Below, piece by piece: positions 3,180-38,597 of a stretch of 64,000 nt of DNA. The first letter of the stretch is position 1. Each line of letters starts with the position of its first letter. The stretch spans positions 49,698,158-49,762,157 of the forward strand of contig OY829540.1 in assembly GCA_963691705.1 (NCBI GenBank), in the 5' to 3' direction. A model generated the notes under the pieces. It was not told the origin of the DNA, did not search any database, and saw only the letters and a list, made by a program, of their open reading frames with translations. The DNA comes from Viola odorata (taxonomy: Eukaryota > Streptophyta > Magnoliopsida > Malpighiales > Violaceae). Made by a program: the position numbers and the translations under genes.

Positions 3180-3254
3180 TGTTCAACTATCTCTCACAAC
3201 ATCCTTGTCATATCAGTCGATTCTCTTCATCTAATAAATTTCCCCCCAAGTATC

Positions 3255-3770
3255 TGATAAGATTCGGAGTTCTGGAGGATCGGGGGTGGGGGTATGGCCG
3301 TTCAGAGTTACTGTAGTTGCCGTCAAATGTACCTGCAAAGCGCCGGAGGGGGGGCTCCAACGTAAACACTCCAATGCTTAAGTTAGTATGACTGTTCAAA
3401 ATAGCAGGGGTTCCAGTAGCGATCTTAGGCTTACCTTGTGTTTCAAATGGTGGGGTATTTATAGGCCACGCGAGGGCGTTACCTCTAGGGGGAGGCGTTA
3501 TCGGGGGAGATAACGCCTCAGGTGACGTCATGGGCGGCAGTTTCAAGTGACGTCATGGCTGTCCTAGGATAGGATAACGCCGTTCGTGCGGATAGATGAC
3601 GCGTGAGACTCCCCCCACCCCCCCGCCACTGATGTCGACCATCCCAGGGTTCCTTGATGGCTAAGGGGCGTCAACCTTCCGCGGCTGACCCCTGGCAGAC
3701 GCGGTAGTGTTCCGGCTTTAACACTGGTACAAGGACGATAATACCCTTGGGGTTGCCTTAATTGTTATCA
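3255..3770 (-). repeat. E1 LTR, low-coordinate copy (3' LTR of the minus-strand element)
   Basis: 516 bp, TG...CA. About 28 substitutions and one 7-8 bp indel separate it from the other LTR (counted by eye, ~94-95% identity), so the insertion is old compared with E4. Confidence 0.92.
3456..3555 (-). promoter_or_regulatory. E1 LTR core promoter: TATA, hairpin and paired TGACGTCA
   Basis: Read on the minus strand, TATAAATA (3456-3463) is preceded upstream by a perfect 11 bp inverted repeat (GAGGCGTTATC, 6 nt loop, GATAACGCCTC; 3492-3519). Further upstream are two TGACGTCA palindromes (3533-3540, 3548-3555), which are bZIP/as-1 type core sites. In the other LTR the TATA and hairpin are identical but both palindromes read TGACATCA. 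Promoter activity is inferred. Confidence 0.55.
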
Positions 3771-3911
3771 TAAGCCCAACTGAAAACGAACCCGAGTGTT
3801 TACCAAGGGTTATCGTTTCAACTTCCTTTCAGATTGTGCCTGTCAATTCGCACGATAACGGGTGGCTCGGTCGTCGAGGAACACGTCTTTTCACCGCATT
3901 TTCTTGAAACT

Positions 3912-3917
3912 TATAAA
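3912..3917 (+). promoter_or_regulatory. candidate TATA box of cassette gene A (E1)
   Basis: TATAAA 66 bases before the ATG of gene A. The sister gene in E2 has TATAAA 67 bases before its ATG, so box and spacing are conserved although the surrounding DNA has diverged. Confidence 0.55.
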
Positions 3918-3977
3918 TTCAAATTTTCCCCGCGCCAATTACACATCTTTTCAGCATTTCTTCCTAGCATTTTCATT

Positions 3978-4361
3978 ATGGACAGTCTCACCAAGAACTT
4001 TCTGATCTCCAAAACCCACACTCTGAAGAACCTCAACGATGGTAACGTCAGCTTTCTAGAAAATGTACTGATCAAGACGTTCGAGGACGTTCTGGAGCTT
4101 CAAGGGATGCTGACTCCCCTTCGGTCCAGGCTTAGTACGACTTCTTTGGAGGATTTCAGTCCTCTAGAGAATGTGTCAAAGTTGGCTACCGTTGTCTCCC
4201 GCATCGAGGTGGTGATCACCATGCTGCAGCAGAGGAAGGATCTGCTGAACTGCTGCTTGAAGGGCATGAGGATTTCTTCCGCCGAGCTGACCTCTGTGGC
4301 GAACGCTTTGAGGGAGGTCCCTACTCTGCCGGAGGATGATGATGCTGGATCCCAGGCTTGA
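3978..4361 (+). CDS. cassette gene A of E1: 127-residue protein of unknown function
   Basis: An intact ORF antisense to gag-pol, between the 3' LTR and gene B. I do not recognise the family. Its relative in E2 (60046-60429) is also exactly 127 residues and aligns without a gap; I count 83 identical residues (65%). The best kept parts are the start (MDxLTxNFLISKTxTLKNL), a middle EDVLELQG, and MLQQRKDLL-x-CCLKGMR near residue 82. The sequence looks helical, with no signal peptide, membrane span or zinc site, and the C-terminus is acidic (DDAGS). It has its own TATA-like box (3912) and AATAAA (4434), so it looks like a separate transcription unit. Equal length with many substitutions suggests selection on the protein; no role can be assigned. 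Confidence 0.7.
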   Translation: MDSLTKNFLISKTHTLKNLNDGNVSFLENVLIKTFEDVLELQGMLTPLRSRLSTTSLEDFSPLENVSKLATVVSRIEVVITMLQQRKDLLNCCLKGMRISSAELTSVANALREVPTLPEDDDAGSQA

Positions 4362-4433
4362 TTGTTGACCGTCGCCATCCTATCTTTTCTTCTCTTTGTA
4401 TGAATGTATGCCCAGGCCTTTAGGCCATAAATG

Positions 4434-4439
4434 AATAAA
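4434..4439 (+). terminator. candidate poly(A) signal of gene A (E1)
   Basis: AATAAA, overlapped by ATAAATGAATAAATAAAA-like sequence, 73 bases after the gene A stop. The E2 copy has AATAAA at 60506 in the same relative place, after a shared 'ggccataaat' stretch. Confidence 0.5.
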
Positions 4440-4515
4440 TAAAACGTCTTTCTTTATTAGAGTCACAGTTTATTTTTGCAATGTGCCAGTTGACATTTCG
4501 GTTGATTGCCACATC

Positions 4516-4529
4516 AGCCCAACTGAAAA
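4516..4529. promoter_or_regulatory. repeated motif AGCCCAACTGAAAA before gene B (E1)
   Basis: The same 14 bases occur next to the LTR at 3773-3786, before gene A, and at the two equivalent places in E2 (59854-59867 and 60591-60604). Being kept at four positions in diverged DNA suggests function, but what it does is unknown. Confidence 0.4.
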
Positions 4530-4748
4530 CGAGTCCGTCCTTGGTTGGACTTTAGTAACAGTTATCCTCGCGAACTGTTCTGCATTAATTTCGCGCCGCC
4601 TCTTCAGTATCAACTGATTGGGCGGTTTTTTAGTGCCTATCGATCGGGGAGAAATTCCAATAGGCGTGATCACAAGATCCGATTCTGTGATTCAGATTGT
4701 TTCTCTCAAAAGTTGTGCAAGAAGATGGAAAAGCTCCTCCTCCTCAGC

Positions 4749-4755
4749 TATTTAA
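4749..4755 (+). promoter_or_regulatory. TATA-like box of cassette gene B (E1)
   Basis: TATTTAA 77 bases before the gene B ATG; E2 has a better TATATAA 73 bases before its gene B ATG. Confidence 0.35.
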
Positions 4756-4825
4756 TGGGATTTTCTCTCCCCTTTTCTGTTCATCTTCTTCTTCATATTT
4801 TCCTGTTAAAATCATTTGTGGTTTC

Positions 4826-5251
4826 ATGGCCGATTCATACTCTTTAGACCTTGCTGAATGCGGTTCTCCCCCAACTCCTCCAACCTCACCGGATTCTGGT
4901 AATCCTCCTTCACCCTCATGCCTGAAGAGGTGACTTCCTCGCCGTAAAAGTCGTAAGAGGTCGAAGAAGGGAAGGACTTCGAAGACGGTCGACCCGTCTC
5001 CTCACTTTTATATCCCACCCGTTCGGAAGGGTGACACACTATTTCCTCACATCGATCGTTTCATGGAAAGGAGTTCTGCTAGCGATATCGGTGCTGATAC
5101 CACAACCTCTGCTGCCAAAGGAGGGTCAAGCTCGCTAAACTTGGGTGAGAAGAGGCACGTTGAAGAACCTTTCCCGCCTATTGCAGAGGAGTTTCCGTCC
5201 TCGGGTGGGGAATACTGCTATTGGTCGTCTTATTGGCCTGACGATGATTAA
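4826..5251 (+). pseudogene. cassette gene B of E1 (one premature stop)
   Basis: The frame from the ATG at 4826 runs 142 codons to TAA at 5249-5251, with a single internal TGA at 4931-4933 (codon 36). Read through that break it is a small low-complexity protein: proline and serine rich at the start (PPTPPTSPDS), then a basic cluster (RRKSRKRSKKGR) like a nuclear localisation signal, then an acidic tail ending YWPDDD. The E2 copy (60918-61339) shares the PPTSPDS stretch, a basic cluster and the tail YWPDED. I recognise no family. TGA could come from CGA by cytosine deamination. It sits between genes A and C on the same strand. Confidence 0.55.
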
Positions 5252-5724
5252 TTTTGCATACTGTGCCTTTCTGTAGATGCCGTATGGCTTTTATGAAATG
5301 AAATTACGCTTTTCGTTTCTCTCCTTTCTTAGTCGCCCTTTCGCGTTAACTTCTTCTGTACTTGGTTAGTTATCGCTGAGAAGCTGGCTGCCGCTTGATG
5401 TAACCGTTCTGTCTTCAAAGATATAAACGCTTAGTCATAAATATCCTTCTGCGATTTTTCCACGTGTCATTTTCTGCTTTGCACGCGTCTCGTTTTTACA
5501 AGCTGTTGGATCCTCAGGTCAACCTTTAAAAGGAAACAACTGTTTTCTTTTAACACTTTTTCTCACGCTTTGAAATTCTTCCCCATCATCCTCTCTTTTC
5601 TGCTTCTTCTTTTACTTGAAGAAAATTTCTTCAACTGCTCATCGGCGCCGGCGGTCTACACACTGCTTTCTCATTCCAGGTATTTTGGTCCATCTTCCTC
5701 AGATTTTCTTCTCATTGGTTCATT
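5252..5724 (+). other. spacer between genes B and C of E1, with probable gene C promoter
   Basis: No ORF. The left end is the 3'UTR of gene B (TTTATGAAATGAAA, where E2 has TTTATGAATAAA). TTTAAAAGG at 5525 may serve as a weak TATA, with ~200 bases of pyrimidine-rich leader before the gene C ATG; E2 has CTTTAAGAAGG in the same region. Confidence 0.35.
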
Positions 5725-7735
5725 ATGCGTATGACTAGAGATCATAGGGGTCTTCAGATGCCTATAGACCCAAAAATTGAGAGAACACCCAGTCTCTTTA
5801 CTTGTGAAATCGTTCTGAAAGCTGCGTTGGAGGGTCAGGGTATCTCCTTTCCTCCTGGTTATTCCGTTAGAGTTCCTGAGGTGGGTCAGCAGCTTCATGA
5901 CCCCTTGTCCAAGAGTGATAGGATGGTCTATTTTAAGATGTTCCTTTATGGTTTTCGTTTCCCTATTCATGAGTCTGTAAAGAAGTTGCTGCGTCAGTAC
6001 GATAACGACCCAGCTCAGATAACCCCTTCCTCCTGGTGCGGAATTTATGCCTTTCTTCGCGCTTGCGAATTGCAGGGTGTATTTACTTCGTCTGTCAATT
6101 TATTCTGCAAATTTTTTAGCTTCAAGTGTCGCAACTGTTTGGTTGATATCGCCCCGAAGTGGAATGACGCATTCGTGCAGTCATTCTGGTAGAGGTTTCA
6201 GGGCTACGAGGGGACTATAGCGGATTGGAAAAGTGGCTTCTTCATTGTTAGACTGCTTTTCCGCCCTTGGCCTAGGGGCTTTAACTGCGGGCTTGTCGAT
6301 TCCATCTGGGTAAACCCAGTAGTGCTGTCTAGGGATGAGTTACGTCAGGCCAACGCCTTGCTAGAAATAAATTTCTCCTTCCGCATCCGAGAGTTTGCCA
6401 TGTACCGGCTTATGACGGAGTGTATTATAGGTGAGTTTCTTTCTTTGTGTTATCGTTTTGACTTGCTCATTACTCTAACATGTCTTGTTGGCAGATGATA
6501 CTGAAGATCAACCGCCTGGAAAGGATGACGCTCCTTTAAACGTGACACCGCTTCAAACGTTATCGGCCTCTCCACCGCCCGAGAGTTCCAGCCGTCAAAC
6601 TATTCTGCCAAGAAAGAGGAGGACTAAAACAGTTGCCGCGAGAGGGCACGATATTCCTACTCGGGCCTCTAGTTTTCTTAACAATTGGCTACCGATCCGA
6701 AGCAAGAAAACGACCACGAGCTGACCAGAAACTAAGATAGCTGAGAGCGACAGCGAGGACATGGACATCGAGACAGAGCTTCTCCATGCTTCCGCGGCTC
6801 AACGGAAGAAACTCAGAGTTGAGAAAACCACTCAAGTTGCTGGGATTTCCTCGAAGAAAGTTGATGAAGTCCCATTCACAAGCGTCGACACTTCTACCGT
6901 GGCGAGTACTTCTCAAGTGACAAAGGTCACTGAGGCGTCAACTGTCATCCCCCCCGAGGTCGCTGGAAACCCGTCGGTGTCAGACTCGCCTCCACCGACT
7001 GGCGTCCCTAACTCTCCCATTTCCTCTTATATTCCTGACGTGGTCGTGCCGATTCCCGACCCGAGCATTCCTTCTGACCCTCCTACAAGGAGTCCCCAAC
7101 CATTACTCTTTACATCCATTTCTAGCATCGGTGATTCCGTCGAAAGTTGCTCTCCTCCTTTTGTGGCCAACCTTTCTCCTCAAGGCTCCCAAGGGGTAGT
7201 TTCTTCTTACCGACTAGATCTGTCCACCTTTGGTACTAGCGGACTTCGTGCTCTAGGGATATCGGATCCGTTATTATGAGACCAGCCGGTAGGCTCCTTG
7301 GTGGGTGAGATATTTGGCTCTCCCAAGGATAAGGAGGAATTATTGCGGCTTCCCCTCGATATCCAACGTGCGCGGGTTCTGAATAACACTCTTGCTAGCT
7401 TCCGCGAGATGCATTATTTTCTCGGGGCTCATGATGACAAACTTCGGGGTTCCCCTGGCTCAAAGGAGCAGTTTGATGCCGCCCTAACTAAGGTGACGGA
7501 GTTGACTCGGCTTCAAAGTCGTACCCAGGCAGAGCTGAAAGATTGTCGCGCCGAGCTTGCAAGAGAAAAATCAAAGGGGAAGGCCAAAGTAGAACTTTTG
7601 GAAGCGGAATTGGCGGTGGCTAAGGTTGAGTTGGTGGCGGCTGACAAAAGAAACTCTTTCCTTCGTGAAGAGATATCGGCTCGCGATGCGGATCTGGCGA
7701 AGGTTCCTTCAAAGATAACCGAGGCGTTCCCATGA
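5725..7735 (+). pseudogene. cassette gene C of E1: PF04195-like domain plus coiled coil, spliced
   Basis: Exon 1 is 5725-6430 (706 nt); the intron is 6431-6494 (GTGAGT...GGCAG); exon 2 starts at 6495. E2's exon 1 is also exactly 706 nt with the same phase, strong support for start and splice site. The N-terminal half has FLYGFRFPIHE and QITPSSWCGIYAFLRACEL, the pattern of the 'putative gypsy type transposon' family. The rest is a proline/serine-rich linker with a basic patch (RKRRTK), then a coiled coil rich in E, K, A and L near 7500-7720. In-frame stops lie at 6190 (TAG), 6722 (TGA), 7277 (TGA) and 7733 (TGA); where the E2 copy can be aligned it has Gln or Arg, as expected from C-to-T decay. 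The molecular role of this family is unknown to me. Confidence 0.7.
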
Positions 7736-8397
7736 TCAGATAAGGTTAACGCCAGAGAGGACTTTACTTGTATTTCTCCCATCGATCATTGGCTCGATTC
7801 AGTTTGTAATAATCGATGACGCTTGTCATGTATTATTGTCTGTAATTCTATCTTGAACAACAAGTAATCTTTATTCTACTTTTTTGCGTTATCTTGTCAG
7901 CTACTAGTTCGATTATCGCCCAGTCGCGTTATCTCAATCATCGCGTCATCGCGCCATTGCGTCTGTCTTGTTTTGAAAAATTGATTCTACTTTTCAAAGC
8001 ATTTAATGCTCAGGATTTTCTCATTAATGCAAAAGAGGAGTCATGATGATCCAAAAGACACGTGTCAACTTGTAAGGGCGCCAAGAGTTAGCGTGCCCTA
8101 GGAATTGGTGAGATCAAAGCATCTTCTCGCTTCTCAAGAATCGTACTCATTACCTACGCCTGTTCCTTGAGACGCCGCAACGACTGTTACAACAGTCGTT
8201 TTACTTAGCCTCTGAGGCTATAAAACCTAACACTTGTTTCTTTTTTCCACTTTTGTCATTTTACGCTCTCCATATCCTTCTGAGTCGGCTTCTATTTCTC
8301 TTTTTCATCGTTTGGGTGTTCAGAGCTCCTCTTCTTAGAAATGTATTTCTTGTTTGTTTCTGTCGTCTTCTTCATCTTTTTACCCTTTATTTCTGCC
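7736..8397 (+). promoter_or_regulatory. spacer with candidate gene D promoter
   Basis: TATAAAA at 8219-8225 lies 173 bases before the gene D ATG (8398). Twenty bases upstream of it is a near-perfect palindrome at 8179-8200 with arms AACGACTGTT and AACAGTCGTT around a 2-base centre; the CTGTTA core resembles MYB sites. The left part (7736-7880) is tail and 3'UTR of gene C without a clear AATAAA. Use as a promoter is inferred. Confidence 0.45.
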
Positions 8398-10398
8398 ATG
8401 GCTAGAACTCATCGCTCTGAGTCTAAATCCGTTGACGAGGAAAAGATTGAGAATACCGTTAGTAGCATTACTTCTTTAACCGCTCTTAATGAGCATCTAG
8501 CCAATCATCATGCTAATATTCCTGAGGGTTATACGGTCTTCGTCGCCCCTGAATTATTACGCCTGAATAGCATTTTAACCGGTAAACGTAGGGTTCTATA
8601 TGCCCAGATGTTTCGTTATGGTTTCCGGTTTCCTATTGATCCCTTTGTAAAATATTTACTTGCTGCTCTTGATTTGAATCCTGTTCAGTTAACCCCAAAC
8701 GCATATTGTTGTGTTTATGCCTTTCTAGAACTTTGCAAGTACAAAGGGATTAACTCTCCTTCCCTTTTGCTGCTTAAGTCCCTTTTTAAACTGTACAGTC
8801 GTCGGGGTGTGATAGCAATATCACCCCGTTATGATGATGACTCGCTTAAAAACTTCACTTGGAAACTCTTTCACCTTGAGTCTTTCATTGAAGATTGGAA
8901 AAAGGATTTTTTTGTTATTGACCTTCCTGGCCTCTGGTGGCTATCTGGTTTTAATCAAGGCGTCAAGGATAGTGCCTAGGATTGGCAGGGGATACTTCGC
9001 CAGCCTGAGCGAGGCTGGCTAGACAAACTACTCCAGCTGGAAATCAACGTTCATACTCGCGATTTGGCATGCGGGATGGACATCCAAACTTGCATCAAAC
9101 GTGAGTGTTGTGTTGTTTTCTTCATCGTTGTAGTCGGTACTAATGCTAATGTTATCTCATGATTATGCAGTAACTGATCCCAATCGAAAGCCCGAGAGCG
9201 TCAAGAAACGGCTAAGAAGGGCTCAACAAAGGAGGGAAAAAGAAGAAGCTACTGCCGCTATTGCAGCCGCGGTTAATCCAATTGTACCACCTGTCGTTAC
9301 CGTGAGTCCCGTCCAGGCGTCTTCTTCCCCAGTTGGTGAGGAGTCCACCACTATTCCTCTTGGTGTTCCTGCCGTGTCTGTTGCCGCCTACCCTGTTCAG
9401 GCATCCTCCTCCAGGGCTCTAACGAAAGGAAAGAAAAAGAAAAGGACAAGAAGCGTTCCCGCTCTCACTCCGTCTTCAGACGTGGCGGCTTCCTCAGAAG
9501 TGCCTGTTAACGATATCGTTGCTGTAAGTGTTTCTTTCATAAATGTGTTATCTCACCCATTGCCTTTTAGTGTCATTTTTGCGTTTTCTTTTACTTTCTT
9601 ATCCCTCGCTTCATTTTCCTTTGCAAGACACCACTACTGCTTCCACTCTCGCATCCCCAACAAACAGTATGAACTTAGGCCACATACTGGATCGTCCTGT
9701 GAAGAGGGCGCGACCTGACGTGGGGGGCGCGAGTTCCCTGACTGGTCGCGCTGATACCGGGGGGAACACAATGTCGCCTTTGATTCCACGATGCCTTCCG
9801 AGGATCAATCTTCTGATTTTCTTGGGGGCATTGGTGTTCCAGGGCCCTTCGAGTCCTCACTGCATTCCTTTGACACCTCGGTTCCTTCCTTTTCCAGTGG
9901 TTTGGGTTTCAGCGAAGATTTGTCTAGTTTCTCGCCTCACGATTCCTTTGGGCTTAATGGGGGTACTTCTTCTCACTAACCTCCATCTCCCTCTATTGTG
10001 GTTTTTGTTCCTTCCAGCTCCCCGATGCTTCAGCGCTTTGGGGGAGGGGTTGTCGCGCCTCACCTCATGGCCGATCTGAGCTCGATAGGCGAATCCGGTC
10101 CTGTCACTCATCAGGTTGACTTGACCAAACTGCGTAGTTCCGATTTCCCGGCTGTTGGGGGCGACAGTTCCGTCGAAGTTTCTTCTCTCTTGGCTGCTTA
10201 TGCACTAACATCCCCTGAAGAGTGGGAGGCATTCCTTTCTCGATCCACAGACGAGTAGGTAAATTCATTGCGCTCCAAGCTCTTTACTTGTTTCTATGAG
10301 TTTCATTACTGGGAGGAGCATATGTCTCATAAGGTCGCTTCCCTTTCCGCCTCCTTAGACGAAAATGTTGACAAGTCTGTGCTTACTGCCGCAGAATA
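8398..10398 (+). pseudogene. cassette gene D of E1: diverged second copy of gene C
   Basis: The exon from ATG 8398 to 9100 is 703 nt, one codon shorter than exon 1 of gene C and in the same intron phase, which is why I prefer 8398 to the in-frame ATG at 8341. It carries FRYGFRFPIDPF and QLTPNAYCCVYAFLELC, a textbook PF04195-like pattern. The intron is 9101-9170 (GTGAGT...TGCAG); a second candidate is 9524-9627, whose phases do not match. Downstream are a basic stretch (KGKKKKRTR), a proline/serine linker and DLTKLRSSDFPAVG, matching gene C. Breaks include TAG at 8977, a frame change near 9780, TAA at 9977 and TAG at 10256. It is a paralogue in tandem with C, on the same strand. Confidence 0.65.
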
Positions 10399-10990
10399 AC
10401 GGATTTCCATAGGAGTATGCCAACTATCCCTTGGCTACCCATTTGATAAAATCGTGGATTGTGATGATGGGTGCTTTGGGAGATATTGCGACATGACCTC
10501 AACATGCGCATTTCAATTATCACTCAGTAGATAACCTCCGAGATAACAAACTTATAGAAAAGAAGGGTGATATCCGCTGCTTCTAGCTTCCCGCAATATA
10601 TAGCGTATAATCGCATTGTTATAGATGTTCTCAGTCGATGGCCAAGGATGCCATGTAGGTAGATTCCAATATATCCCTTTCCGTAGAGATGGTCGCCCGA
10701 TAAAGACATAATGCATATGCCCTTTAAACCATATTTTTCTAGTCACGATAACAAGATTGTCAATCCCGAATATGGATTTCGCGACCTTGTTGTCCGCATG
10801 GGGGTCAATCTCTTCGTCATCCGAACGATATCTCCGTGGGAGCCTTCTCGCCTCCGTCTCAGGGTATCGCTGTCGATGTCGCTCATATCGCTTTCTCCAC
10901 CAGCCATCTTCATTAGGGATTTCCCATTTGGTTACTCGCTGGGATTTCGCGATTCTTGGTGTTTCCATATTTCCACAGTCGGCCTGGAAA
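10399..10990. other. unassigned segment between gene D and the tandem array of E1
   Basis: The minus strand holds an open stretch at 10552-10968 (138 codons, basic) that matches nothing I know; on the plus strand there are only short frames. It may be old 3' sequence of gene D or UTR of E1. The only neighbouring sign is the array that starts at 10991. Confidence 0.3.
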
Positions 10991-11494
10991 GTGCCTCATC
11001 TTAGTGAGCCGTCAGATCAGGATTGCCCATCACAAGGCTAGGTTTTTCACTTTCAGGCGTTGTCCTCACATCCCGGAATCATGCCCTCGTCTTAGTGAGC
11101 CGTCTGTATTAGCCCGGTTATCACAAGGATAGGATTTTCACTTCCCGGATGGAGTTACTATCTCTCTAGGGCGTGCCTCACCAAGGCGAGCCGTCTTTAC
11201 AAGCACGGTCGACATGAGGGTAGGAATTTTCACTCCCAAGGATGCCGGGACGTGCCTCGTCTTAGTGGGCCGTCTATGTTAGCCCGGTTTACCATAAGGA
11301 TAGGAATTTTCAATCCCGGGGGCGTCGGGACGTGTCGTCTTCTTCATGGCCCACCTATGTTAGCGTGGCTACCACAAGGATAGGAGTTTTAACTCCCGAC
11401 GCTAAATTTTAGGTGTGCCAGGGCGTGCCTCATCTTAGTGAGCCATCTGATCAAGATCGACCATCACATGGATAGGACTTTTCACTCCTGGCAC
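10991..11494. repeat. degenerate tandem array, six units of ~80-93 bp, in E1
   Basis: Units begin near 10991, 11081, 11173, 11252, 11332 and 11425 with variants of GTGCCTCATCTTAGTGAGCC and end with variants of GGATAGGATTTTCACTCCCG. The array lies just after the integrase (minus strand), where Tat/Retand-type elements are known to carry short tandem repeats. No coding potential. Confidence 0.8.
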
Positions 11495-11648
11495 CCTTTA
11501 TTATCTACACACAGTCAGCCACAAAACACACAAGAATATTCTCTATTCAAGCGTTAGCGTAGTTAAGGCTGGCGTTAGTGAAATGTGCAGAGACATATCA
11601 AAGTCTAGCATGATATAATTTCAAACGAGCTATGTTCCAAGAGTTAGG

Positions 11649-12674
11649 TTAGGGAGTATCGTCAAGTGTTTCCAACTGATATGCTCCCTTCCCGATGACA
11701 CGGGTGACGCGGTATGGCTCGTCCCAGTTTGGACCGTGCTTCCCCACGCGCTGACCAGCTGCTCGTTTGTCTCTGAGTACCAGGTCACCTGCTTTCAGTA
11801 ATCGCTCTCTAACGGGCCTGTTGTGATATCGCGCAATTTTCTGTTTGTAATGCAGCATTTTCAGAAGGGTTTCCTCTTGCCATTCTGGTAACGCGTCTAG
11901 GTTAGCTCGTAACCTTTCCTCATTTAATTCTTCCCGAAAGTAGGCAACTCGTAGGCTCACGGTGCCAATTTCCACCGGCGTGATGTCCTCTGTACCAAAA
12001 GCCAACGTGAACGGTGTTTCTCCAATACTGGTTTTGACGGTCATGCGGTATGCCCACATCATATACAGTAGTTCGTCTGCCCATTTCTTTTTAGACCCTT
12101 CTAAGTTTTTCTTGATACCACTAAGGATACTTCGGTTTGTCACCTCCGCTTGACCATTGGTCTGCGGGTGGGCCACGGACGAGAACCTTTATTCAATCTG
12201 GAATTCTGCACATTGGTCTTTAAAGAATCGGCTGGTGAATTGCGTCCCGTTGTCGCTTACCAGCACACGGGGTACACCGAACCTCATGATAACTTGGTGT
12301 TTAAAGAAACGCCAAATTTTCTCCGTCGTGATGTTTGCCACCGCTTCTGCTTCTGCCCATTTCGTGAAGTAATCTACCGCCATGACTACAAATTTCAATT
12401 GAGACCTTGCCTTTGGGAACGGTCCTAGGATATCAATCCTCCATTTCGCAAAAGGACAAGGGGCCACGATTTCAAAGATTTTCGTGGCGGGCTGTCGAGG
12501 AATCCTAGATAACTCTTGACACTTTTGACAAGTTTGTACATAATTGTGGCAATCTCTTCAAATGGTTGGCCAATAAAATCCTGACCGGAATACTTGTGTG
12601 GCCATGGTTCCGCCTGATGCGTGCATACCGCATATTCCTTCATGGATTTCTCGCAAGGTGTGAATGCCTTCTCG
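11649..12674 (-). pseudogene. E1 integrase region
   Basis: Minus-strand frame with zinc-finger-like HEGICGMH and CQKCQ, then the catalytic core with WRIDILGPFP, VAVDYFTKW-like MAVDYFTKWAEAEA and VSDNGTQFTS. The HPQTNGQAEVTNR stretch carries the third acidic residue, and the C-terminal part ends GKHGPNWDEPYRVTRV. These are Tat-lineage patterns. Frame is kept for most of its length; a TGA near 12563 and a TAA near 12187 interrupt it. No chromodomain is seen. Confidence 0.8.
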
Positions 12675-13484
12675 TTATGTTATACACTTGGCCGCTAGGT
12701 GAGAGAAGCATCTACGAACCAGTTCCCCGTCATAATATGTACACCGTGCTGCTTGTTTCAGCACTTTCTTTTTCTCAGCGTTATCTGCAGGTAACTCTTT
12801 ATGTTTCAAATATTTTATTACGGGGATTCGCCAGTCATTTTCAATTTCTTCAACGCAAAGCGACACTTGCTCTTCCATGAAGGAAGGTACCAATATTTCT
12901 TGGTAGTATACGCCCTTAGGTATGGGTGCTTCCGGGTTCGCCGCAAGTTTGGCAAGGTTGTCTACCTCAGCGTTATCCTCTCGAGGGATGTGCTCGAAGC
13001 TGACTCGCATGCCACTGTTCTTTATTTTTAACAATTTGCGCTTCACTTTAGCGAGATATCGCACCATGATAGGCTCTCTAGCCCGGGAGTGTCCCAAGAC
13101 TTGGTCTATTATCAACTTGGAATCTCCACAAATCTTTAGTCGCAAGTCTCCCATCATTCCTGTATCGTGTATAACCTTGCTGGAGAAGTTTCTTCTGATC
13201 CTAAGCCCAGCCAATAGTGCCTCGTATTCTGCCGCGTTATTAGATAACGGCTGTAGAATCCTGATGGCGTATCGTATATGTATGTCACGTGGTCCGATCA
13301 TGAAGATTCCCGCTCCAACGAATTCTTGGTTCTTGTCCCCATCCACGTGGATGTCCCACAAATTAGTGTAGGTTTCAGGGAACGAGAGGTCCAAGTCATC
13401 TTTTTCCTCTTCCGGTAGGTCCGTTAATGGGTCCTCTGTGAAGGTGCACTCGACTATGAAGTCTGCTAGGACTTGGGCTTTCAC
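12675..13484 (-). pseudogene. E1 second (plant/archaeal-type) RNase H domain
   Basis: An open stretch of 269 codons with HVDGD, NNAAEYEALLAG, GDSKLIIDQV and REDNAEVDNLA, giving the D-E-D-D set of a type I RNase H of the extra kind found in Tat elements, between RT-RNase H and integrase. This domain is one of the reasons for the Tat call. It is in frame by itself but belongs to a polyprotein that is broken on both sides. Confidence 0.8.
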
Positions 13485-13489
13485 GGAGG

Positions 13490-14956
13490 GTCAGTTTTTA
13501 TACCGCAACCCATATTACTCAAGCTCAATGACCCAAATCAGCATTCTTCCCGAAGACTTAGGTTTTTGAAATATCCTTTTCAAAGGTTGAGATCAGTAAG
13601 CAAGATAACAAGATGAGCCTGGAAATATCTGTCCATTTTCCTCGTAGCTTGAATTAACGCAAATGCTATCTTCTCGATGCGAGCATATCGCAGCTCAGCG
13701 TCTTTCAGAACATGACTCACGAAGTAGACTGGACGATGCTAATGGTTGTCGTCTCAAACGTGGACGGCACTGACTACTTCATCAGCCACGCCGAGGTATA
13801 GATATAAGGTGTCTCCCGGTTCAGGTCTTGTCAACACCAAGTCCCATGATAAGTAAGCTTTCAAGCCCATAAATGCTTCTTCGCATTCTGCTGTCCAGGA
13901 GCTTTTTTGCGTATGACCTTGAAAAAGGGGAGGCATCTCTCATCTTGTTTTGAGATAAACCGTCCTAAGGCGATAACGCGGCCTGTTAGCTTTTACACCT
14001 CTTTGGCGGTTCGAGGAGATATCATGTCCTGTATAGCCTTTACTTTGGAAGGGTTGGGCTGAATACCTTTCTGGCTGACCACGTAGCCCAAAAATTTACC
14101 CGTTTGAAACGTGAACATGCATTTACGGGGGTTTAACTTCATCTGGTATTTTCTCATCACATTGAAAACTTCTCCCAGGTCAAACAAGTGATCCTGGAAG
14201 CTTTGGCTTTTGACCAGTATGTCGTCAACGTAGGCCTCTACATTCTTTCCGATTTGCTTGTCAAATATTTTATTTGCCATACGCTGGAAAGTCGCTCCTG
14301 CGTTCTTCAGTCCGAACGGCATCGCCGTATAGCAATAAGTGGCCTTCGGGGTAATAAAAGCAGTTTTCTCCTCATCCTCAACGGCCATGGGGATTTGATG
14401 GTATCCCGAATTAGCATCTAATGAACTTAGATAGGCATATCCGGCGGTCTGATCGACTAGCTGATCTATTCGAGGAAGTGGGTAGCAGTCTTTGGGGCAA
14501 GCATCGTTCAGGTCAGTAAAATTGATGCACATACGCCAATCTCTGTTGGGCTTCGGAATGAGCACTAGGTTAGCTAGCTAGGTTGGCTATTGAACTTCCC
14601 AGATGAAGCCTGCGTCTAGTAGCTTTATCACCTCCTTCTCGACGGCTAACGCTTTCTCCGCAGAAAATGCGCGTCGTTTCTGCTGGACCGACTTGACGTT
14701 GGAGTCAACATTGAGTCGGTGTTCCGCTACCTCTTGAGAGATACCTGACATGTCTGCGGGTTTCCATGCGAATTCTCCTTTGTACTTATTCAACAGTCGA
14801 GCTAGCTGTTTACTTTCTTCTGAGCTCGCTTACCAGGAAACTTGCTTCATTGATCCCGTTAACTGGCACAGTTATCATTTTGTCCACGGGCTGAGTGCGT
14901 TTCTCATCATTCTGTTCGTACGGATATACTGTTACACACACGTACCTATCACAACT
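13490..14956 (-). pseudogene. E1 reverse transcriptase and first RNase H region
   Basis: The minus strand at 13993-14565 gives NRDWRMCINFTDLNDACPKD, the SGYHQIPM stretch, MPFGLKNAGATFQ and AYVDDILVKS, the RT palm with its YVDD. Upstream, 14587-14793 is the N-terminal RT part; two stops lie between them near 14570-14585. Downstream, 13490-13990 is the RT-RNase H connection, broken several times. E4 interrupts the polyprotein at 14956, so protease and gag lie beyond 22735. Confidence 0.85.
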
Positions 14957-15940
14957 TGATAGGATCCTGGTTCCTTAGGATGCGTAGCACCAATTTTGAT
15001 CTTTGTTCAAAGACGAATTTCCCTGCGGAATAAGATAACTCACTTACACAATCTAAGTCTGCTGAACGCTAAGCAACAGCCACCCTAGATCCGAGCAAGA
15101 GAGGTTCCTTGATGTTACTGAACTTGCACAATTTAAGTCTGCTGAACGCTAAGCAACAGCCACCCTAAACCCGAACAAGAAGACAGACAACAAGTAGAAT
15201 GCAATTCCAAGATTTACTTGTATACGACTCAAGTATTGCGGACTCAAGAAGAACAAGGTTCAACCAACTTGAACAAGGGGCAGAAATTTGAAGAGAATAT
15301 CTCAATTTATCAAAATAACAGCCAAGTTTCTAAGGAGGCCAAGCGGCTCCTTATATAGGTTACAAGCAAACCCTAATCCCATAACAGGAATAATAATTAA
15401 AGTAAAACACTTAACTAATTAATTAAAGTGTCTAATTAATTAACTAAGCTAAAATAAATAGAAAGTCGCAGCCTTGCTAAAACAGTCAACGCGCGCCAAC
15501 TCCAGGAAGGCGAAACGGGCAGGAGCCGTTATCAACAAAAGGGCAGATAGGTGTGACGCGGAACGGGGACAGCAATCGGCATGCGCGACGGATGATGGAA
15601 TCGGCAACGGCTAAGTGAAAGGGTAAGTGCCGTTTTGACCCAATCGGGCAAGTGCCGTTTTGAGGGAAATGGACAGCTGCCGATTGGATGAAACGGTCAA
15701 GTGCCGTTTGCGTGAAACGGTTCCATGCCGTTTCTAGCAGACTCAACATCGGTCAAGTTGAAGGTGAGAAGATTCATCACTCTTGTTGTCTTCTCTCTCA
15801 GTGTAGCATTCTCACTTGTCATCTCAGACTCCAGCTCCCTGTGAAGGAGAGATGACAATCGGTCTTGAAGCTTTTGAGCTCTGGCTCGAGTCATTGGACC
15901 AGCTGGCGGTAAAGGCACCTGGATGCGTGGATTCGCATCA
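14957..15940 (-). repeat. E4 3' LTR (minus-strand sense)
   Basis: 984 bp. It contains an 80 bp direct duplication (starting near 15045 and 15125) that is shared with the other LTR. It also holds the last ~80 codons of the pol frame (15697-15940). Confidence 0.95.
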
Positions 15941-18900
15941 TTCCCTCCCCCTTTTGAAGGATTCGCCCTCGAATCCGAATCGTCATTATCAGCAAGTCCA
16001 TACTCGTCATCTGTATCAAACAAGACTAAGTCAGAAACATTGAAAGTGGAACTAACGGCACCATACTCACTCGGCAATGCCAGTTTGTAGGCATTGTTGT
16101 TGATCTTCTCAATAATCTGGAACGGTCCGTCTTCTCTAGGAGATAGCTTGCCGCGGCGTTGGTCAGGAAAACGCTCCTTGCGCATATGCAACCAGACCCA
16201 ATCGCCCACCTGGAACGTCACCAGCCGTCGGCCATCGTTCCGTTTCTGTATCAGCTTCTCATTCATTCGCTCAATGTTCTGTTTTGCCTTAGCATGTAAT
16301 TGCTTGACAAAATCAGCCTTCTGTGCACCATCTAAGCTTACAATATCACTCAACGGTAAAGGAGTTAAATCCAAAACAGTTCTAGGATTAAATCCATATA
16401 CGAGTTCAAACGGTGAGTAATGAGTAGTAGAATGAACAACACGGTTGTAAGCAAATTCAATAAATGGTAAATGATCAACCCAAGTAGAAACATGCTTACG
16501 AACTAACGTGCGTAAAAGTGAACCAAGCGTACGATTCACAACCTCAGTTTGACCATCCGTTTGTGGGTGATAAGAAGTGGAATATAACAATCGGGTACCA
16601 AGCTTTTTCCATAAAACACGCCAAAAATGACTAAGGAACTTAGTATCTCTATCACTCACAATAGTCAAAGGAACACCATGCAAACGGACTACTTCACGAA
16701 AGAATAAATCAGCAATCTGAGTAGCATCACAAGTAGTCGAACATGCAATAAAATGGGACATTTTCGAAAATCTGTCCACCACAACAAAGACACTATCCTT
16801 TCCATTTTTAGACCGAGGCAGCCCTACAACAAAATCCATGGATAGATCGGTCCAAGGATGAGAAGGAACAGGTAACGGCATGTATTCGCCATGACCAGTA
16901 GACTTAGACTTGGCTCTACGACAAATTAAACATCTAGCAATGATGCGTACTACATCACGCTTCATGTGAGGCCAATAAAAGTGATCATGTAACACATCCA
17001 AAGTTTTAGTCACGCCAAAGTGACCCATCAAACCCCCGCTATGGGCTTCATGCACAAGTAATTCACGAAGAGAGCAATGAGGAATACACAATTGTTTGCC
17101 CCGAAACAAATAACCCTCATGCTTATAAAATTTAGAACCCGAAATAGAAACGCCATGCAAATAAATGTCACCAAAATCAGAATCGGCAGCATAGAGTTCT
17201 ATAATGTGCGAAAATCCAAGCAATTTGGCATTAAGAGAAGTAATTAACGCGTACCTGCGTGATAAAGCATCAGCAACAACATTCTCTTTACCTTGCTTGT
17301 ACTGAATGTGATAAGGGAAAGCCTCAATAAATTCCATCCAGACGGCATGTCTCCGATTCAGCTTCCCTTGTCCCTTGAGGTACTTCAAGCTCAAATGGTC
17401 AGTATGGATGATGAACTCCCTCGGCATCAGGTAATGTTGCCAAGTCTCCAATGCTCGGACAAGAGCATAGAACTCCTTGTCATAGGTCGGATACCTGAGT
17501 TGAGCATCCTTGAGCTTTTCACTGAAAAAAGGCAATCGGTCATTTCTCTTGCATCAGAACGGCACCGATTCCCAACCCGCTGGCGTCACACTCTATCTCA
17601 AATGCCTTGTTGAAGTCGGGCAATGCTAGCACGGGAGCGGCACAGAGCCGTTCCTTGAGTGTAGCAAACGCTTCATCCTGCGGCTGTTCCCACCTGAAAG
17701 CAACATTCTTCTTTGTTAATTCATTCAAAGGGACAACAATGGTGCTAAAATCCTTGACAAAACGCCGATAGAAGCTCGCCAATCCATGGAACGATCTCAC
17801 ATCGGTAACGGCCTTCGGCGTCGGCCATTCCCGAATCGCGTGGATCTTCTCTTCATCCACTTGGACACCATCTGCACTCACAATAAAACCAAGAAAACCA
17901 ACTTGTTCCATTGCGAATGAACACTTACTAGGTTTAACATATAGTTTCTGTTCACGAAGTGTTAGAAAAACTTCCTTAAGATGTAAAACATGCTCATCAA
18001 AAGATTTGCTATAGATTAAAATATCATCAAAATAAACTACAACAAATTTGCCAATTAAGTGCCGAAGTACATGGTTCATTAACCTCATAAAGGTGCTAGG
18101 AGCATTAGTCAAGCCAAACGGCATAACCATCCATTCATATAAACCATACTTAGTTTTAAAAGCAGTTTTCCATTCATCCCCTTCTTTCATACGAATTTGG
18201 TGGTAGCCACTCATTAAATCAATTTTAGAAAATAACCTACTACCACTTAATTCATCTAACATATCATCTAATCTAGGAATAGGATGACGATACTTTACAG
18301 TGATTTTGTTGACTGCTCGACAATCAACACACATGCGCCAAGAGCCATCTTTTTTTGGAACTAGAATGACTGGAACGACACATGGGGACAGACTCTCCCG
18401 AACATAACCACGCGCAAGCAAATCGTCCACTTGCCGTTGCAGTTCCTTGGTCTCCTCTGGATTGGATCGGTAAGCTGGCCGATGTGGAATTGCCGATCCA
18501 GGAACAAAGTCGATCTGATGTTCTATGCCGCGGATCGGAGGTAAGCCAGGCGGCATCTCTTCGGGCAGTACGTCTCCAAATTCCTGCAAGAGAGAAGAAA
18601 TAGCAATTGGAACGGTAGGAGACCGTTCCGCGTCATCGGACGTCAGACAATAAGAGCGAAAACGGATTAGAAGAATAGGACGGCTTGCGTCAAAACAATT
18701 TTGTTGAAAAATCATGGCTCGCCTCACTTCGCTCCCTTTGGCATATACACTCAAATTCATTTTACTTGCCTCTCCTTTTCTCTCAATGCCACTCTCAGCA
18801 CGCTTACTTTTTTCGTGCGAATGTTTACTCTCCCCCTCTGCATGCTTACTGTTTTCATGCGAATGTTGAAGGCTCACACACTCATTGTGTCTCTCTTTAT

Positions 18901-19462
18901 TTGGCACACGCAAACCTTCTTTTTCTCTCTCAATCTGTTTTGTAATTTCATATTCAGTATAAGACTTAGCAAGCCATTGCTGATCTGCACATACTTCTGC
19001 TGGTGACAACGGGGCTAAGGTGAATTTTCGGCCATCTTTTACCAACTTATAGAAATTCCGTTTGCCCTCATGGGTCGCATCTCTGTCAAACTGCCATGGT
19101 CTGCCAAGAATAATATGACTTGCTTGCATTGGGACCACATCACAAAGCACTTCATCCTGGTATTTGCCGATACGGAAATTGACAAGTACCTGCCGATTTA
19201 CCTTGACACCGACTCCGTCTGTCATCCAATGGAGCTGATATGGCTTCGGATGTTTGATCGTTGGTAAGTCCAGTTTATCTACCATCATCCAACTCGCGCA
19301 ATTGGTGCAGCTGCCGTTGTCAATGATGATGGAACAACCCTTCTTGTCGATTACCCCATGGGTATGGAACAGATTTGTCCGTTGTTCCTCGTCACACACT
19401 TCCTCTGTGGCTTGCACACTGAGATTTCGACGGACAACAAGCAGATGAACCTGCTCATAGTT
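15697..19462 (-). pseudogene. E4 pol: protease, RT, RNase H, integrase
   Basis: In order on the minus strand: protease ([10 protein letters not shown]), RT ([22 protein letters not shown]), RNase H (FIIHTDHLSLKYL), then the integrase zinc finger (HEAHSGGLMGHFG with CLICRRAKS) and core with DFVVGLP, VSDRDTKFLSHFW and YHPQTDGQTEVVNR. The C-terminal part with SRANPSKGGGND runs into the LTR and ends at 15697. gag and pol lie in the same frame separated by one TAG (19463-19465). There is a TGA and a one-base shift in a T run near 17535-17542. The element would be near-functional at protein level but as it stands is broken. Confidence 0.9.
15941..15958 (-). promoter_or_regulatory. E4 polypurine tract
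   Basis: On the minus strand the sequence directly before the 3' LTR is AAAAGGGGGAGGGAA, the expected plus-strand primer for reverse transcription. Confidence 0.85.
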
Positions 19463-20755
19463 CTAACAGTCACCATCCGAATCGGCACAACCATCTCCCT
19501 CAGGTTCTGATTCCCCCTTATCATCATCCGATTCTTCCTCTCCATTCGGCTTGATGATGAAGACTCTTTTATTTGGGCATTCTGATTTCTTATGCCCTCG
19601 GCCGTTGCACTTAAAACAGACAATTTCCTTAGTAGCTGGCCGATCCACTGGTGGAGTATAAGGTTTGTGAGTAGCCGTTTTGGGAGGAAGAACGGCACTA
19701 GCAGATCCCTTCAAAACGGCAGGGACTGTTTTGTCGTCCTTAGTCCAAGACGTCTTCGTCCAAGGCGTCGACCCAGTAGACTTATAGGAACTCCTAGCTT
19801 TCCTATGTTTCTCAATCTTTTGGGCCATGTGAAGCATCTCCTCAAGAGTATTGTATTGCGTTAGCTCTAGGGCGTCGACAATCTCTGCATTCAAACCAAC
19901 AATGAACTGAGCCATTGTTAGCTCAGGTTCCTCAGTAATCTTTGCTTGAGCTAAAGCAATCTCCATCTCATTAAAGTAGGCACCAACGCCCTTGCTGCCC
20001 TGCTTCAAGGTCTGAAGCCGTTGATGAAGCTCTCGGTGAAAGTGCATCGGCACAAACCGTTGCCTCATCGCCTGTTTCATCTCACCCCAATCATTAATCG
20101 GACCAGCAAGAACAGCTGCTCTCTTCAGATTGAATTGCTCCCACCAATGACTAGCATATCCACTGAACTCCACTGCTGCGAGTTATACCTTTTTACCTTC
20201 CGAATAATTGTGGCATAAGAAAATAGCATCCACTTTCCGTTCCCATGTCAAGAATGCATCAGGGTCGTCAGTACCCTCAAATAGAGGTATTTTCATTTTG
20301 ATGCTACTGAGATTAGCATCAAATCGGTCCTCTTCCCGTTCTCGTCTACCATCCCGATCATCCCTTCTTCCCCCTCGCGGTCCGTCCCGAGCATATATCC
20401 AACCTTCTCCCCCGTCAGGTTCTTCCACCAGATCAGGTTGTGGGACTTGTGGCCCACGTCTAGCAGGTCGCCTGGGAGGAACGTTTGCCAGCTCACGTCG
20501 CCGATTCTCATCACGTGGTCGATGAGCGTTGTCATCTGCTTCGGACCAATCGGATATATGGCCGTCACGCTGATCCTCCGCTGCTCTAGGGTTCGGGTTT
20601 ATGGTAGCTAATGCTTCCACCCTAGCCATCCTTACATCGGCAGCCATCTGCCGCTCATTGGCAGCTACTTGCCGTTCATTCAAAGTTCGGAGCTGTTCCG
20701 TTATGGCAGTTAACATAGCCACCATATCGGGTTGTTGTACTCCTTCTTGAGACAT
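19463..20755 (-). pseudogene. E4 gag
   Basis: Capsid-type polyprotein from the ATG at 20755 (MSQEGVQQPDM) with an N-terminal coiled coil, an R/D-rich linker, the retrotransposon gag domain (WWEQFNLKRA, RFVPMHFHRELHQRLQTLKQG) and one CCHC zinc knuckle CFKCNGRGHKKSEC. One in-frame TAA at 20183-20185 lies just before the gag core; otherwise the frame is open to the TAG at 19463. Confidence 0.88.
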
Positions 20756-21746
20756 CTTTAACTCTCCTGAAATCACAACACAAAAGAAAAACGTAAAATT
20801 GTACTATTCCTAGCACTCCCTCACGTGTTTACTCTCGTGTTTAAACGCTCTAATATTCTCACTAAATCACACAAAATTCCTGCAATGTTCAAGCGTTAGT
20901 GAGACTCAAGAATCCAAGAAAAAGCTTCCAAGAAGACTCTCAAAGAAAACTAGCTTCAAACAAAACGGGATACTTGGTATTTGATTAATTGCAAGATCAA
21001 CCAATTAAACAAATAACAAGTGGAGTAGAAAACAATATTAAAGAATCAAAGGAAAGCTCTATTTGACTCGAACGGACTCATATAAAATTAATCTCCAATA
21101 TAATATTGTAGAGTTTATGCTGCATGGGTGAAAGAATAAACTAAGATTTGCCTTTAGAAAGTGGAGGACAAAAACAGAGAATATTCCAACTAACAAAGGT
21201 AGTGGGTGCGGGACAAAACAAAGTGGAAGGATGGGTTGCCCTCTACTTTTAGAATAAAGCTTAAAAGTACCAACTTTTTAAAGTATGTTTAACAAATGAT
21301 TGCACATGGGATTCCAAAGCTGGACGGATGTTGGATCTAACAACACAAACTGTTTTTCTTCTTGCTACTGAAACGGATCAAAGCAAGCTTTTGGACTGCT
21401 TTCTTGTAATATTTTTTTATTTTATTTTTTTGAATTCGCAAATCCCAGTTCAGTGAAACGATCGCAACTTTTTACTCAGTTATCCGAATCGACTGATTCT
21501 TCTTGATTCGGAAACCTCACAAGCACAACTTTCCAACAAGACCAAAATCACCCAAATTGAACTTCAACAGCTACACTTTAAAAATCAATTTCGACAACTG
21601 ACCAGAATTTGCACATTTACGAACCAAGCACAGCAAAGAAATCGGTTTTGAATGGAGTAGAAATAGATACCGATTTCAACAAAGAAAACTTGAAACAAAA
21701 TAAAGATAATTACCAATCTTTGAACGCCTTAAGCTCCGCTACCAAC
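20756..21746 (-). other. E4 leader with primer binding site
   Basis: Noncoding 5' leader. TGGTAGCGGAGC (minus strand, 21733-21744), two bases from the LTR, is the expected primer site beginning TGG, complementary to a tRNA ending in CCA. E5 and the copia element E6 have the same twelve bases after their LTRs. Confidence 0.8.
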
Positions 21747-22730
21747 TGATACGATCCTGGTTCCTTAGGATGCGTAGCACCAATTTTGATCTTTGTTCAA
21801 AGACGGATTTCCCTGCGGAATAAGATAACTCACTTACACAATCTAAGTCTGCTGAACGCTAAGCAACAGCCACCCTAGATCCGAGCAAGAGAGGTTCCTT
21901 GATGTTACTGAACTTGCACAATTTAAGTCTGCTGAACGCTAAGCAACAGCCACCCTAAACCCGAACAAGAAGACAGACAACAAGTAGAATGCAATTCCAA
22001 GATTTACTTGTATACGACTCAAGTATTGCGGACTCAAGAAGAACAAGGTTCAACCAACTTGAACAAGGGGCAGAAATTTGAAGAGAATATCTCAATTTAT
22101 CAAAATAACAGCCAAGTTTCTAAGGAGGCCAAGCGGCTCCTTATATAGGTTACAAGCAAACCCTAATCCCATAACAGGAATAATAATTAAAGTAAAACAC
22201 TTAACTAATTAATTAAAGTGTCTAATTAATTAACTAAGCTAAAATAAATAGAAAGTCGCAGCCTTGCTAAAGCAGTCAACGCGCGCCAACTCCAGGAAGG
22301 CGAAACGGGCAGGAGCCGTTATCAACAAAAGGGCAGATAGGTGTGACGCAGAACGGGGACAGCAATCGGCATGCGCGACGGATGATGGAATCGGCAACGG
22401 CTAAGTGAAAGGGTAAGTGCCGTTTTGACCCAATCGGGCAAGTGCCATTTTGAGGGAAACGGACAGCTGCCGATTGGATGAAACGGTCAAGTGCCGTTTG
22501 CGTGAAATGGTTCCATGCCGTTTCTAGCAGACTCAACATCGGTCAAGTTAAAGGTGAGAAGATTCATCACTCTTGTTGTCTTCTCTCTCAGTGTAGCATT
22601 CTCACTTGTCATCTCAGACTCCAGCTCCCTGTGAAGGAGAGATGACAATTGGTCTTGAAGCTTTTGAGCTCTGGCTCGAGTCATTGGACCAGCTGGCGGT
22701 AAAGGCACCTGGATGCGTGGATTCGCATCA
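21747..22730 (-). repeat. E4 5' LTR (minus-strand sense)
   Basis: 984 bp, near-identical to 14957-15940. Its left terminus is TGATACGATCC where the partner has TGATAGGATCC. Confidence 0.95.
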
Positions 22731-22735
22731 CAACT

Positions 22736-25325: not shown

Positions 25326-25833
25326 TGATAAGATTCGGAGTTCTGGAGGATCGGGGGTGGGGGTATGCCAGTTCAGAGTCACTGTAGTTGCCGTCAAATG
25401 TACCTACAAAGCGCCGGAGGGGGGGCTCCGGCGTAAACACTCCGATGCTTAAGTTAGTATGGTTGTTCAAAATAACAGGAGTTCCAATAGCGATCTTAGG
25501 CTTACCTTGCGTTTCAAATGGTGGGGTATTTATAGGCCACGCGAGGGCGTTACCTCTAGGGGGAGGCGTTATCGGGGGAGATAACGCCTCAGGTGACATC
25601 ATGGGCGCCAGCTTCAAGTGACATCATGGTTGTCCTGGGATGGGATAACGCCGTTCGTGCGGATAGATGACGCGTGAGACTCTCCCCCCCGCTGATGTCG
25701 ACCAACCCAAGGTTCCTTGCTGGCTAAGGGGCGTCAACCTTCCGCGGCTGACCCCTGGCAGGCGCGGTAGTGTTCCGGCCTTAACAATGGTACAAGGACG
25801 ATAATACCCTTGGGGTTGCCTTAATTGTTATCA
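25326..25833 (-). repeat. E1 LTR, high-coordinate copy (5' LTR of the minus-strand element)
   Basis: 508 bp partner of 3255-3770, followed by TSD GTATC. TATAAATA on the minus strand is kept; both TGACGTCA sites have become TGACATCA (25594, 25619). Confidence 0.92.
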
Positions 25834-25838
25834 GTATC

Positions 25839-37345: not shown

Positions 37346-38597
37346 TTGCATGTGCTTTTCTTATTTATTATTTTGAGTTATCGCTAATACTCTCACTTCG
37401 TAGGATAAAATTCAAGTCTTCGCTCGCAATGAATTATCTTAATTTATCTCACTTGTTGTAATTAGTTGACGCTTTAATTAATTACTTCACTTGTTGTAAT
37501 AATTAGTTAGATTAATTATTCCGACCTCCAATTTGTAATAATTAGATAAACGGTTTTTATTATGAATTGTGGTTTGTAATAATTAGTTAAGTAGTTAAAA
37601 CTCGTGTATGCTGCTTATACCTGCGTATTTATGTCAATTGCCGCTAACGATCATTTTGAAGAGATGGATCGATCGGGGTTCATCAAATCGGGTAAGTTTA
37701 TCTTAAAACCCTTTTATTTATTTTTATGCTTTGAATGAATGTTTATCAAAAAGGTCCAAAGCCTCGATCATATCGTATGCATGACCACTTAGAATGCGTT
37801 AGAACCACCCTCGCGTATGCATGACATATAGAATTGCTAAACAATTAAAATCAATCTCACATGTTTATATGTTTAAATCACTCGCTTTATGCCATGAGAT
37901 TAATTGTTATATTTGATAATTGAGCATGGTGGCTTCGAATCCCACTCGGTTATGTGCATTCACAAAAATGGTACTATTTTAGTTTTTTACCATGTTAGGA
38001 TCACGTAGTAATTAATTAATTAATCATGCATGGCTCGATGAAAAGGGGGAACGTCCACTCTAGCATAACGAACAAACGGTAACCCCGTCCTTCGTGTCTC
38101 GATCGGAAATAACATGTCCCTACGAAAATGCTAAGATGTAACGTCACCTTTGAGTGCCAAATCACGTAAAAAATGTTTAAATAATTGGAAAGTGTCCCAA
38201 TTCGGTAAGCGGACTCTGTTGACATGATTCAATCATTGGCCTATGTAAATGATTGGAAAGTGACTTGAGTTCGTGGGAAGAATTGGTTGACATGCTTCGA
38301 TCATTAAACAAATCTTTGTATATCAAAACTGTTTACAAACACCTTTTTACCGGTAACCTTTTAAGGGTGTGACTTGGGTGCCTAACACCTTCCCAAGTCC
38401 ACAATACGACCTCGAACCTTTGTTCAATGGTTTAGACCAAGCCTTTAGTTTTTGTTTTTATGCCATGATGTTTAGGTTCCCTAAACCTTAGAAAAATAGG
38501 GTGGCGACTTCATTGCATTATGCGAAGCATCCATGTATGCTTAGCATTCGTCCCGAACCTTAAACTTATTTTTCAACGAAAAAGGGGGTGCGACAGT

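Follow-up and report, generated by a model that had tools for sequence, protein, structure and literature searches.

The window analysed here is a 64,000-nucleotide stretch of the Viola odorata genome (GenBank assembly GCA_963691705.1, contig OY829540.1, forward-strand positions 49,698,158 to 49,762,157), and it holds a Ty3 long terminal repeat (LTR) retrotransposon, E1, together with part of a second element, E2. All Pfam gag-pol domains of E1 lie on the minus strand, in the order gag, reverse transcriptase (RT), RNase H (RH), a second RNase H (aRH, RVT_3) and integrase (INT), and the stretch from the integrase to the 3' LTR holds four plus-strand genes, A, B, C and D, antisense to gag-pol (Table 1). 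A, B and C recur in the same order in E2. A first-pass annotation made from the sequence had described such a multi-gene antisense cassette inside a Tat-type element, and strand, gene order and the RT-RH-aRH-INT order all agreed with this description. According to the open text of PMC6317226, a second RNase H between RH and INT marks Ogre and Retand; E1 has this arrangement, common to both, and also the Retand-lineage (Tat clade) feature Transposase_28 (TRP28, PF04195), which was matched in C (E 1e-09) and D (E 1.5e-08). By domain order and TRP28 genes, rather than by an RT tree, E1 is classed as a Retand-type element. Its two LTRs share 93.2% identity, and the target duplication GTATC flanks it on both sides (3250-3254 and 25834-25838). 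Stops interrupt the reading frames of C (three), B (one) and D (one, besides frame breaks), which marks E1 as a decayed copy. A 147-aa open frame without a Pfam match lies on the sense strand between the integrase and gene D (10555-10995). In E2, where B has a frame break and C one stop, we infer an antisense cassette from the LTR start and a junction motif left of A; its pol lies beyond the window, which ends inside C, and the comparison of the two elements covers A, B and C.

The best-kept gene of the cassette was A, with 65% identity between the elements compared with 52% for exon 1 of C, and its differences fell mostly at third codon positions (32/23/67 at the three positions). The codon-based comparison that the first-pass annotation had proposed gave a dN/dS of 0.17 for A and likewise 0.17 for exon 1 of C, and exon 2 of C was 44% identical with a pN/pS of 0.54. 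Results showed that purifying selection acts on A and on C exon 1. B is homologous between the elements (alignment score 118, maximum 46 in 300 shuffles), broken in both and weakly constrained: its pN/pS was 0.70 (0.57-0.87), and clear constraint was not seen in the part after the E1 stop alone (0.84, 0.64-1.09). A and B, whose absence from other family members was to count against the cassette, are thus present in a second element.

C and D are, judging from their sequences, paralogous TRP28 genes, with 33% identity across the whole first exon of the E1 copies and a phase-1 intron at the same site, which makes D a diverged tandem paralogue of C. C of E1 shares 52% identity with C of E2 but 33% with D, and the duplication therefore likely predates the split between E1 and E2. 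The phase-1 intron of C had been called conserved, and it has the borders GTGAG...CAG in both elements; its edges were placed by eye, and the reading frame was then checked. The stop-parted halves of C in E2 each fell below the Pfam cut-off (second half, E 0.086 against PF04195), and exon 1 could be aligned with C of E1 over its full length. Because the cassette genes are antisense, splicing of the sense genomic RNA would leave their introns in place, and intron-bearing genes can thus pass through reverse transcription.

Signals resembling promoters and poly(A) sites were found at the positions given in the first-pass annotation. TATA words stand 66/67 nt before the ATG of A in E1/E2 and 77/73 nt before that of B, those of E2 at 59979 and 60845; D is preceded by a TATAAA box, and AATAAA lies downstream of both A genes and of the B gene of E2. 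The number of TATA words was by itself near chance (3 vs 1.96 expected; 63 of 200 simulations gave at least as many), so that the TATA evidence consists of the matched E1/E2 positions only; AATAAA was counted 3 times vs 0.88 expected, reached in 10 of 200 simulations. In E1 and E2 alike, the AATAAA after gene A is directly preceded by a GGCC...GGCC pair (4415-4443 and 60491-60511). Promoter-like boxes at matched positions are also in keeping with a function of the antisense transcription itself, in which double-stranded RNA formed with the genomic RNA would give rise to small RNAs and copy control, as is proposed in the open text of PMC7264820. We hold this to be very unlikely, since the purifying selection on proteins A and C is not needed by a purely RNA role.

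A 16-base junction motif, AGCCCAACTGAAAAYG, adjoins the start of the LTR on the upstream side of A, with a second copy ahead of B. It has exactly four occurrences in the window, two per element at these places, and with up to three mismatches it gave 7 matches vs 1.34 expected, a number reached in none of 100 shuffles. Copies within an element agree at the single variable position, with C in the E1 pair and T in the E2 pair. LTR-adjacent sequence that is repeated further inside and co-varies within the element recalls the additional polypurine tracts (PPTs) in the open text of PMC2829016, where the repeated PPTs of Sireviruses behave in this way and a single additional PPT is described for Athila4 and Calypso. 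Unlike these, the motif is not purine-rich, and its one extra copy is placed before an antisense gene. It is a candidate for a primer role or, alternatively, for a promoter role at A and B.

The DNA of E1 is rich in a short word on both strands. Words were counted against an order-2 model in 100 runs, with the best of all hexamers compared, and GATAAC was the most over-represented hexamer of E1 (33 copies vs 6.5 expected, z 10.4; best z in the simulations 5.9). After removal of similar contexts, 31 copies remained (15+/16-, z 9.6), and the flanks were unrelated among copies. The strand balance argues for a DNA-level rather than an RNA-level signal. The density of GATAAC in non-coding DNA was 2.6 times that in coding DNA (4.3 vs 1.6 per kb, p 0.009), and the 3.2 kb of non-coding sequence, which includes the LTR and the two introns, holds 14 of the 33 copies (vs 1.7 expected). 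The non-coding sites are the LTR, the region upstream of A, the A-B, B-C, C-D and D-INT spacers and the introns of C and D. The 625 bases between the 5' LTR and gag contain none, the positions in E1 showed no departure from uniform (Kolmogorov-Smirnov p 0.48), and across the 31 kb that separate the two elements (25839-57059) the word was at background, with 12 copies vs 13.8 expected. A second E1 word, CGATATC (5083-22845), was confined to coding compartments and occurred 13 times vs 1.6 in a count that includes overlapping pairs on both strands.

E2 is enriched in a related word, GCTAACG, with 7 copies vs 0.2 expected (z 14.8; maximum over 100 simulations 11.4). Two copies lie in the LTR, one upstream of A, two in the B-C spacer, one in the C intron and one in C exon 2, so that 6 of 7 are non-coding. 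Among the corresponding 7-mers of E1, GATAACG was found 13 times vs 1.8, GGTAACG and GTTAACG 6 times vs 1.2 each, and GCTAACG 2 times vs 1.1; GATAACG was not found in E2 (0 vs 0.2 expected). As a natural control we used 43 of 64 viral loci, namely those of at least 9 kb, and after context filtering none of the 43 had a both-strand word at z of at least 8. The best both-strand word in two 14-kb stretches of this window reached z 5.3 and 2.9. GATAAC is dense in the LTR and upstream of A (7.75 and 9.66 per kb), as would suit sites of host transcription factors, for example MYB- or GATA-like factors, which drive the LTR and antisense promoters while TRP28 has another job; the different word of the element nested in E1 also suits this. 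We consider such an explanation unlikely, because the words also run throughout pol, introns and spacers without departure from uniformity, because E1 and E2 of one genome have different words, and because GATAAC is at background between them.

We tentatively read the region as an antisense accessory cassette of a Retand-type element whose TRP28 proteins would act on their own element's DNA through the dispersed word, and we hold this reading with somewhat less than even confidence. TRP28 is predicted to bind DNA in the open text of PMC11963269. The proteins would be DNA-binding regulators of their own element, expressed from antisense promoters of the cassette; the scattered words, GATAAC in E1 and GCTAACG in E2, are likely their docking sites, and binding there may keep the element transcribable or tune its copy number. 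The protein of gene A, predicted as three long helices (predicted local distance difference test, pLDDT, 74), may be a partner protein. Its helices would also fit cassette proteins that are particle or nuclear-entry accessory factors, like retroviral accessory proteins, with the words unrelated to them. The protein of maize Grande gene23 is nuclear, and a retroviral-accessory-like role is proposed for it in the open text of PMC7264820; we nevertheless find this explanation rather improbable, as it leaves unexplained why both-strand words are enriched in the LTR, the introns and the spacers.

Action of TRP28 on its own element would resemble that of VANC21 and VANC6 of the Arabidopsis VANDALs, in which, in the open texts of PMC5735166 and PMC10398659, an element-coded protein binds short family-specific non-coding words and brings about a loss of methylation. 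As in the VANC/VANDAL system (Hosaka 2017, PMC5735166), a short element-specific word is enriched in the non-coding DNA of E1 and E2, and related families have related but different words. Unlike here, the VANDAL is a DNA transposon rather than an LTR element, and binding and demethylation are shown for VANC. E1 is not filed as a VANC-type member and only likely works similarly, by a likeness of design alone. That Retand elements carry an LTR-element counterpart of VANC, in which antisense-made TRP28 docks on an element-specific GNTAACG spread over the element's own DNA and opposes silencing, and protein and word co-evolve (GATAACG in E1, GCTAACG in E2), seems to us doubtful.

Several observations weigh against TRP28 acting through the dispersed word. 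VANC targets lie in one-orientation tandem repeats in the open text of PMC5735166, whereas the E1 words have mixed orientation, and no tandem array was found in 3255-10600. The predicted TRP28 structure was poor (pLDDT 46), with weak fold matches. A both-strand word, AACGGC (18 copies after filtering, z 8.0; with AATCGG, within 15525-21675), is also dispersed in the nested element, none of whose four open reading frames (ORFs) of at least 120 aa matches TRP28, so that dispersed words need no TRP28. The placement of AACGGC is unlike that of the E1 word, with 16 of 20 copies in ORFs and none in the LTRs. In the unfiltered counts, the strongest hexamer equalled or exceeded that of E1 in 3 of the 43 controls (z 10.4-11.8). 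These loci and the nested word, together with an order-2 model that may understate natural clustering, are what would be seen if the words arose only from sequence composition or codon usage and no factor recognised them; the strand balance, the random flanks, the excess within non-coding DNA taken by itself and the empty filtered controls make this highly improbable. The E2 enrichment rests on seven copies and is conspicuous for the 7-mer but not for the hexamer GCTAAC, which came second to CGGTAG among E2 hexamers (z 6.2 vs a simulation maximum of 7.2) and was also raised outside the elements (17 vs 9.4 in 25839-57059). The word analysis was unplanned, in that GATAAC was first noticed by eye and counted, and ranked lists, topped by GATAAC (E1 hexamers) and CGTTAGC (E2-region 7-mers), were made afterwards; the family-wise simulation guards against such post hoc choice. 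Finally, the comparison covers two element copies only, and E1 is decayed.

Table 1 Features of E1, its nested element and E2 in the window.
Feature	Position	Strand	Remarks
E1, Retand-type Ty3 LTR retrotransposon	3255-25833	minus	LTRs, target duplication, Pfam domains; holds nested Ty3 element
E1 3' LTR	3255-3770	minus	TGATAA...TTATCA on plus strand; TG...CA ends
E1 5' LTR	25326-25833	minus	
E1 gag	22487-24523	minus	Pfam
E1 pol side	10552-14951	minus	Pfam domains
E1 RT	13993-14565	minus	Pfam
E1 RNase H	13583-13939	minus	Pfam
E1 second RNase H (aRH, RVT_3)	12678-13490	minus	Pfam
E1 integrase core (rve)	12192-12557	minus	Pfam
E1 likely INT tail	to 11652	minus	no family match above cut-off
Nested Ty3 element	14957-22205		LTRs ~14952-15410 and ~21743-22200, 99.3% identical
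Gene A (E1)	3978-4361	plus	127 aa, intact; TATAAA at 3912, AATAAA at 4434 and 4438
Gene B (E1)	4826-5251	plus	one in-frame stop; TATTTAA 77 nt upstream
Gene C (E1), whole	5725-7735	plus	
Gene C exon 1 (E1)	5725-6430	plus	Transposase_28 (PF04195); one in-frame stop
Gene C intron (E1)	6431-6494	plus	phase 1; contains GATAAC
Gene C exon 2 (E1)	6495-7735	plus	coiled-coil-like tail by eye; two in-frame stops before end
Gene D (E1), whole	8398-10398	plus	
Gene D exon 1 (E1)	8398-9100	plus	Transposase_28 (PF04195); alternative start ATG 8341; TATAAA at 8219
Gene D intron (E1)	9101-9170	plus	same phase-1 site as C; contains GATAAC
Gene D downstream exons (E1)	9171-10398	plus	frame broken
Junction motif (E1)	3773-3788	plus	adjoins 3' LTR start, upstream of A
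Junction motif, second copy (E1)	4516-4531	plus	upstream of B
33 GATAAC words (E1)	3497-23511	both	one LTR counted, nested element left out
E2 3' LTR remnant	59571-59851	minus	begins TGATAACAAT as E1 does; left edge approximate
Junction motif (E2)	59854-59869	plus	upstream of A
Gene A (E2)	60046-60429	plus	127 aa, intact
Junction motif, second copy (E2)	60591-60606	plus	upstream of B
Gene B (E2)	60918-61339	plus	frame broken
Gene C exon 1 (E2)	61835-62540	plus	homologue of E1 gene C; TRP28 domain cut by one in-frame stop
Gene C intron (E2)	62541-62623	plus	phase 1; contains GCTAACG
Gene C exon 2 (E2)	62624-64000	plus	runs past window end
7 GCTAACG words (E2)	59717, 59732, 59890, 61419, 61445, 62605, 62760		within 59717-62766

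Around the two elements, the plus strand carries an oppositely oriented, gag-protease-like piece of a further related element, to which the gag at 57743-59564 belongs and which meets the truncated E2 3' LTR at ~59570. Two arrays of ~180-185 bp repeats (38557-39813 and 47898-49685) have opposite orientation and are 72% alike where paired, and a 52-bp array at 44105-44885 is rich in CGATAGC. UDP-glucosyltransferase, PPR-repeat and copia-type gag/integrase pieces lie at 1606-2478, 28000-29819 and 32106-34476, and the DNA has by these the look of a plant nuclear genome.

Antisense TRP28 genes are a published hallmark of Retand, reported in the open texts for 61 of 63 recently active Retand clusters (PMC11963269), with Transposase_28 in 23% of Retand elements (PMC6317226), and the cassette is for this reason a variant of a known arrangement. 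Not only antisense TRP28 genes but also multiple antisense ORFs and antisense promoters have already been published, and the open text of PMC7264820 reports that maize Grande gene23 has its own promoter and a nuclear protein; the view of the first-pass annotation that several antisense units are non-standard was not supported, while its gene order, C intron, matched signal positions and Tat type stood. The C/D paralogy, the junction motif and the dispersed words were absent from it. Like gene23, the cassette genes are antisense accessory genes; unlike in Grande, for which one gene is described, E1 has several, and the two are likened by description, not by sequence. As in the Retand elements of Vicient 2025 (open text of PMC11963269), TRP28 is antisense between pol and the 3' LTR in a long pol-3' LTR region. 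Unlike those, E1 has two TRP28 paralogues and the small genes A and B, which at 384 and 426 bp are under the 600 bp limit set there for ORFs without TRP28, and its region from 3771 to ~11650 exceeds the survey maximum (6,566 bp in its text, 6,556 bp in its table). As gene A illustrates, a conserved antisense gene can escape a survey whose lower limit is 600 bp or 250 codons. Dispersed words, present in E1 and E2, go unmentioned for Retand in that open text, and in the open texts searched, which left aside supplements, subscription papers and Steinbauerova 2011, tandem TRP28 paralogues, gene A and a dispersed Retand word were likewise unmentioned. Sunflower Retand is reported to show a local fall in CG methylation with CHG methylation still high (open text of PMC12844716), a pattern that may fit an anti-silencing TRP28 in part and proves nothing. 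The role of TRP28 is given as unknown in the open text of PMC11963269; the dispersed element-specific word is a concrete candidate target for it, and a pairing of TRP28 and word could help to explain how Retand elements are active under plant silencing.

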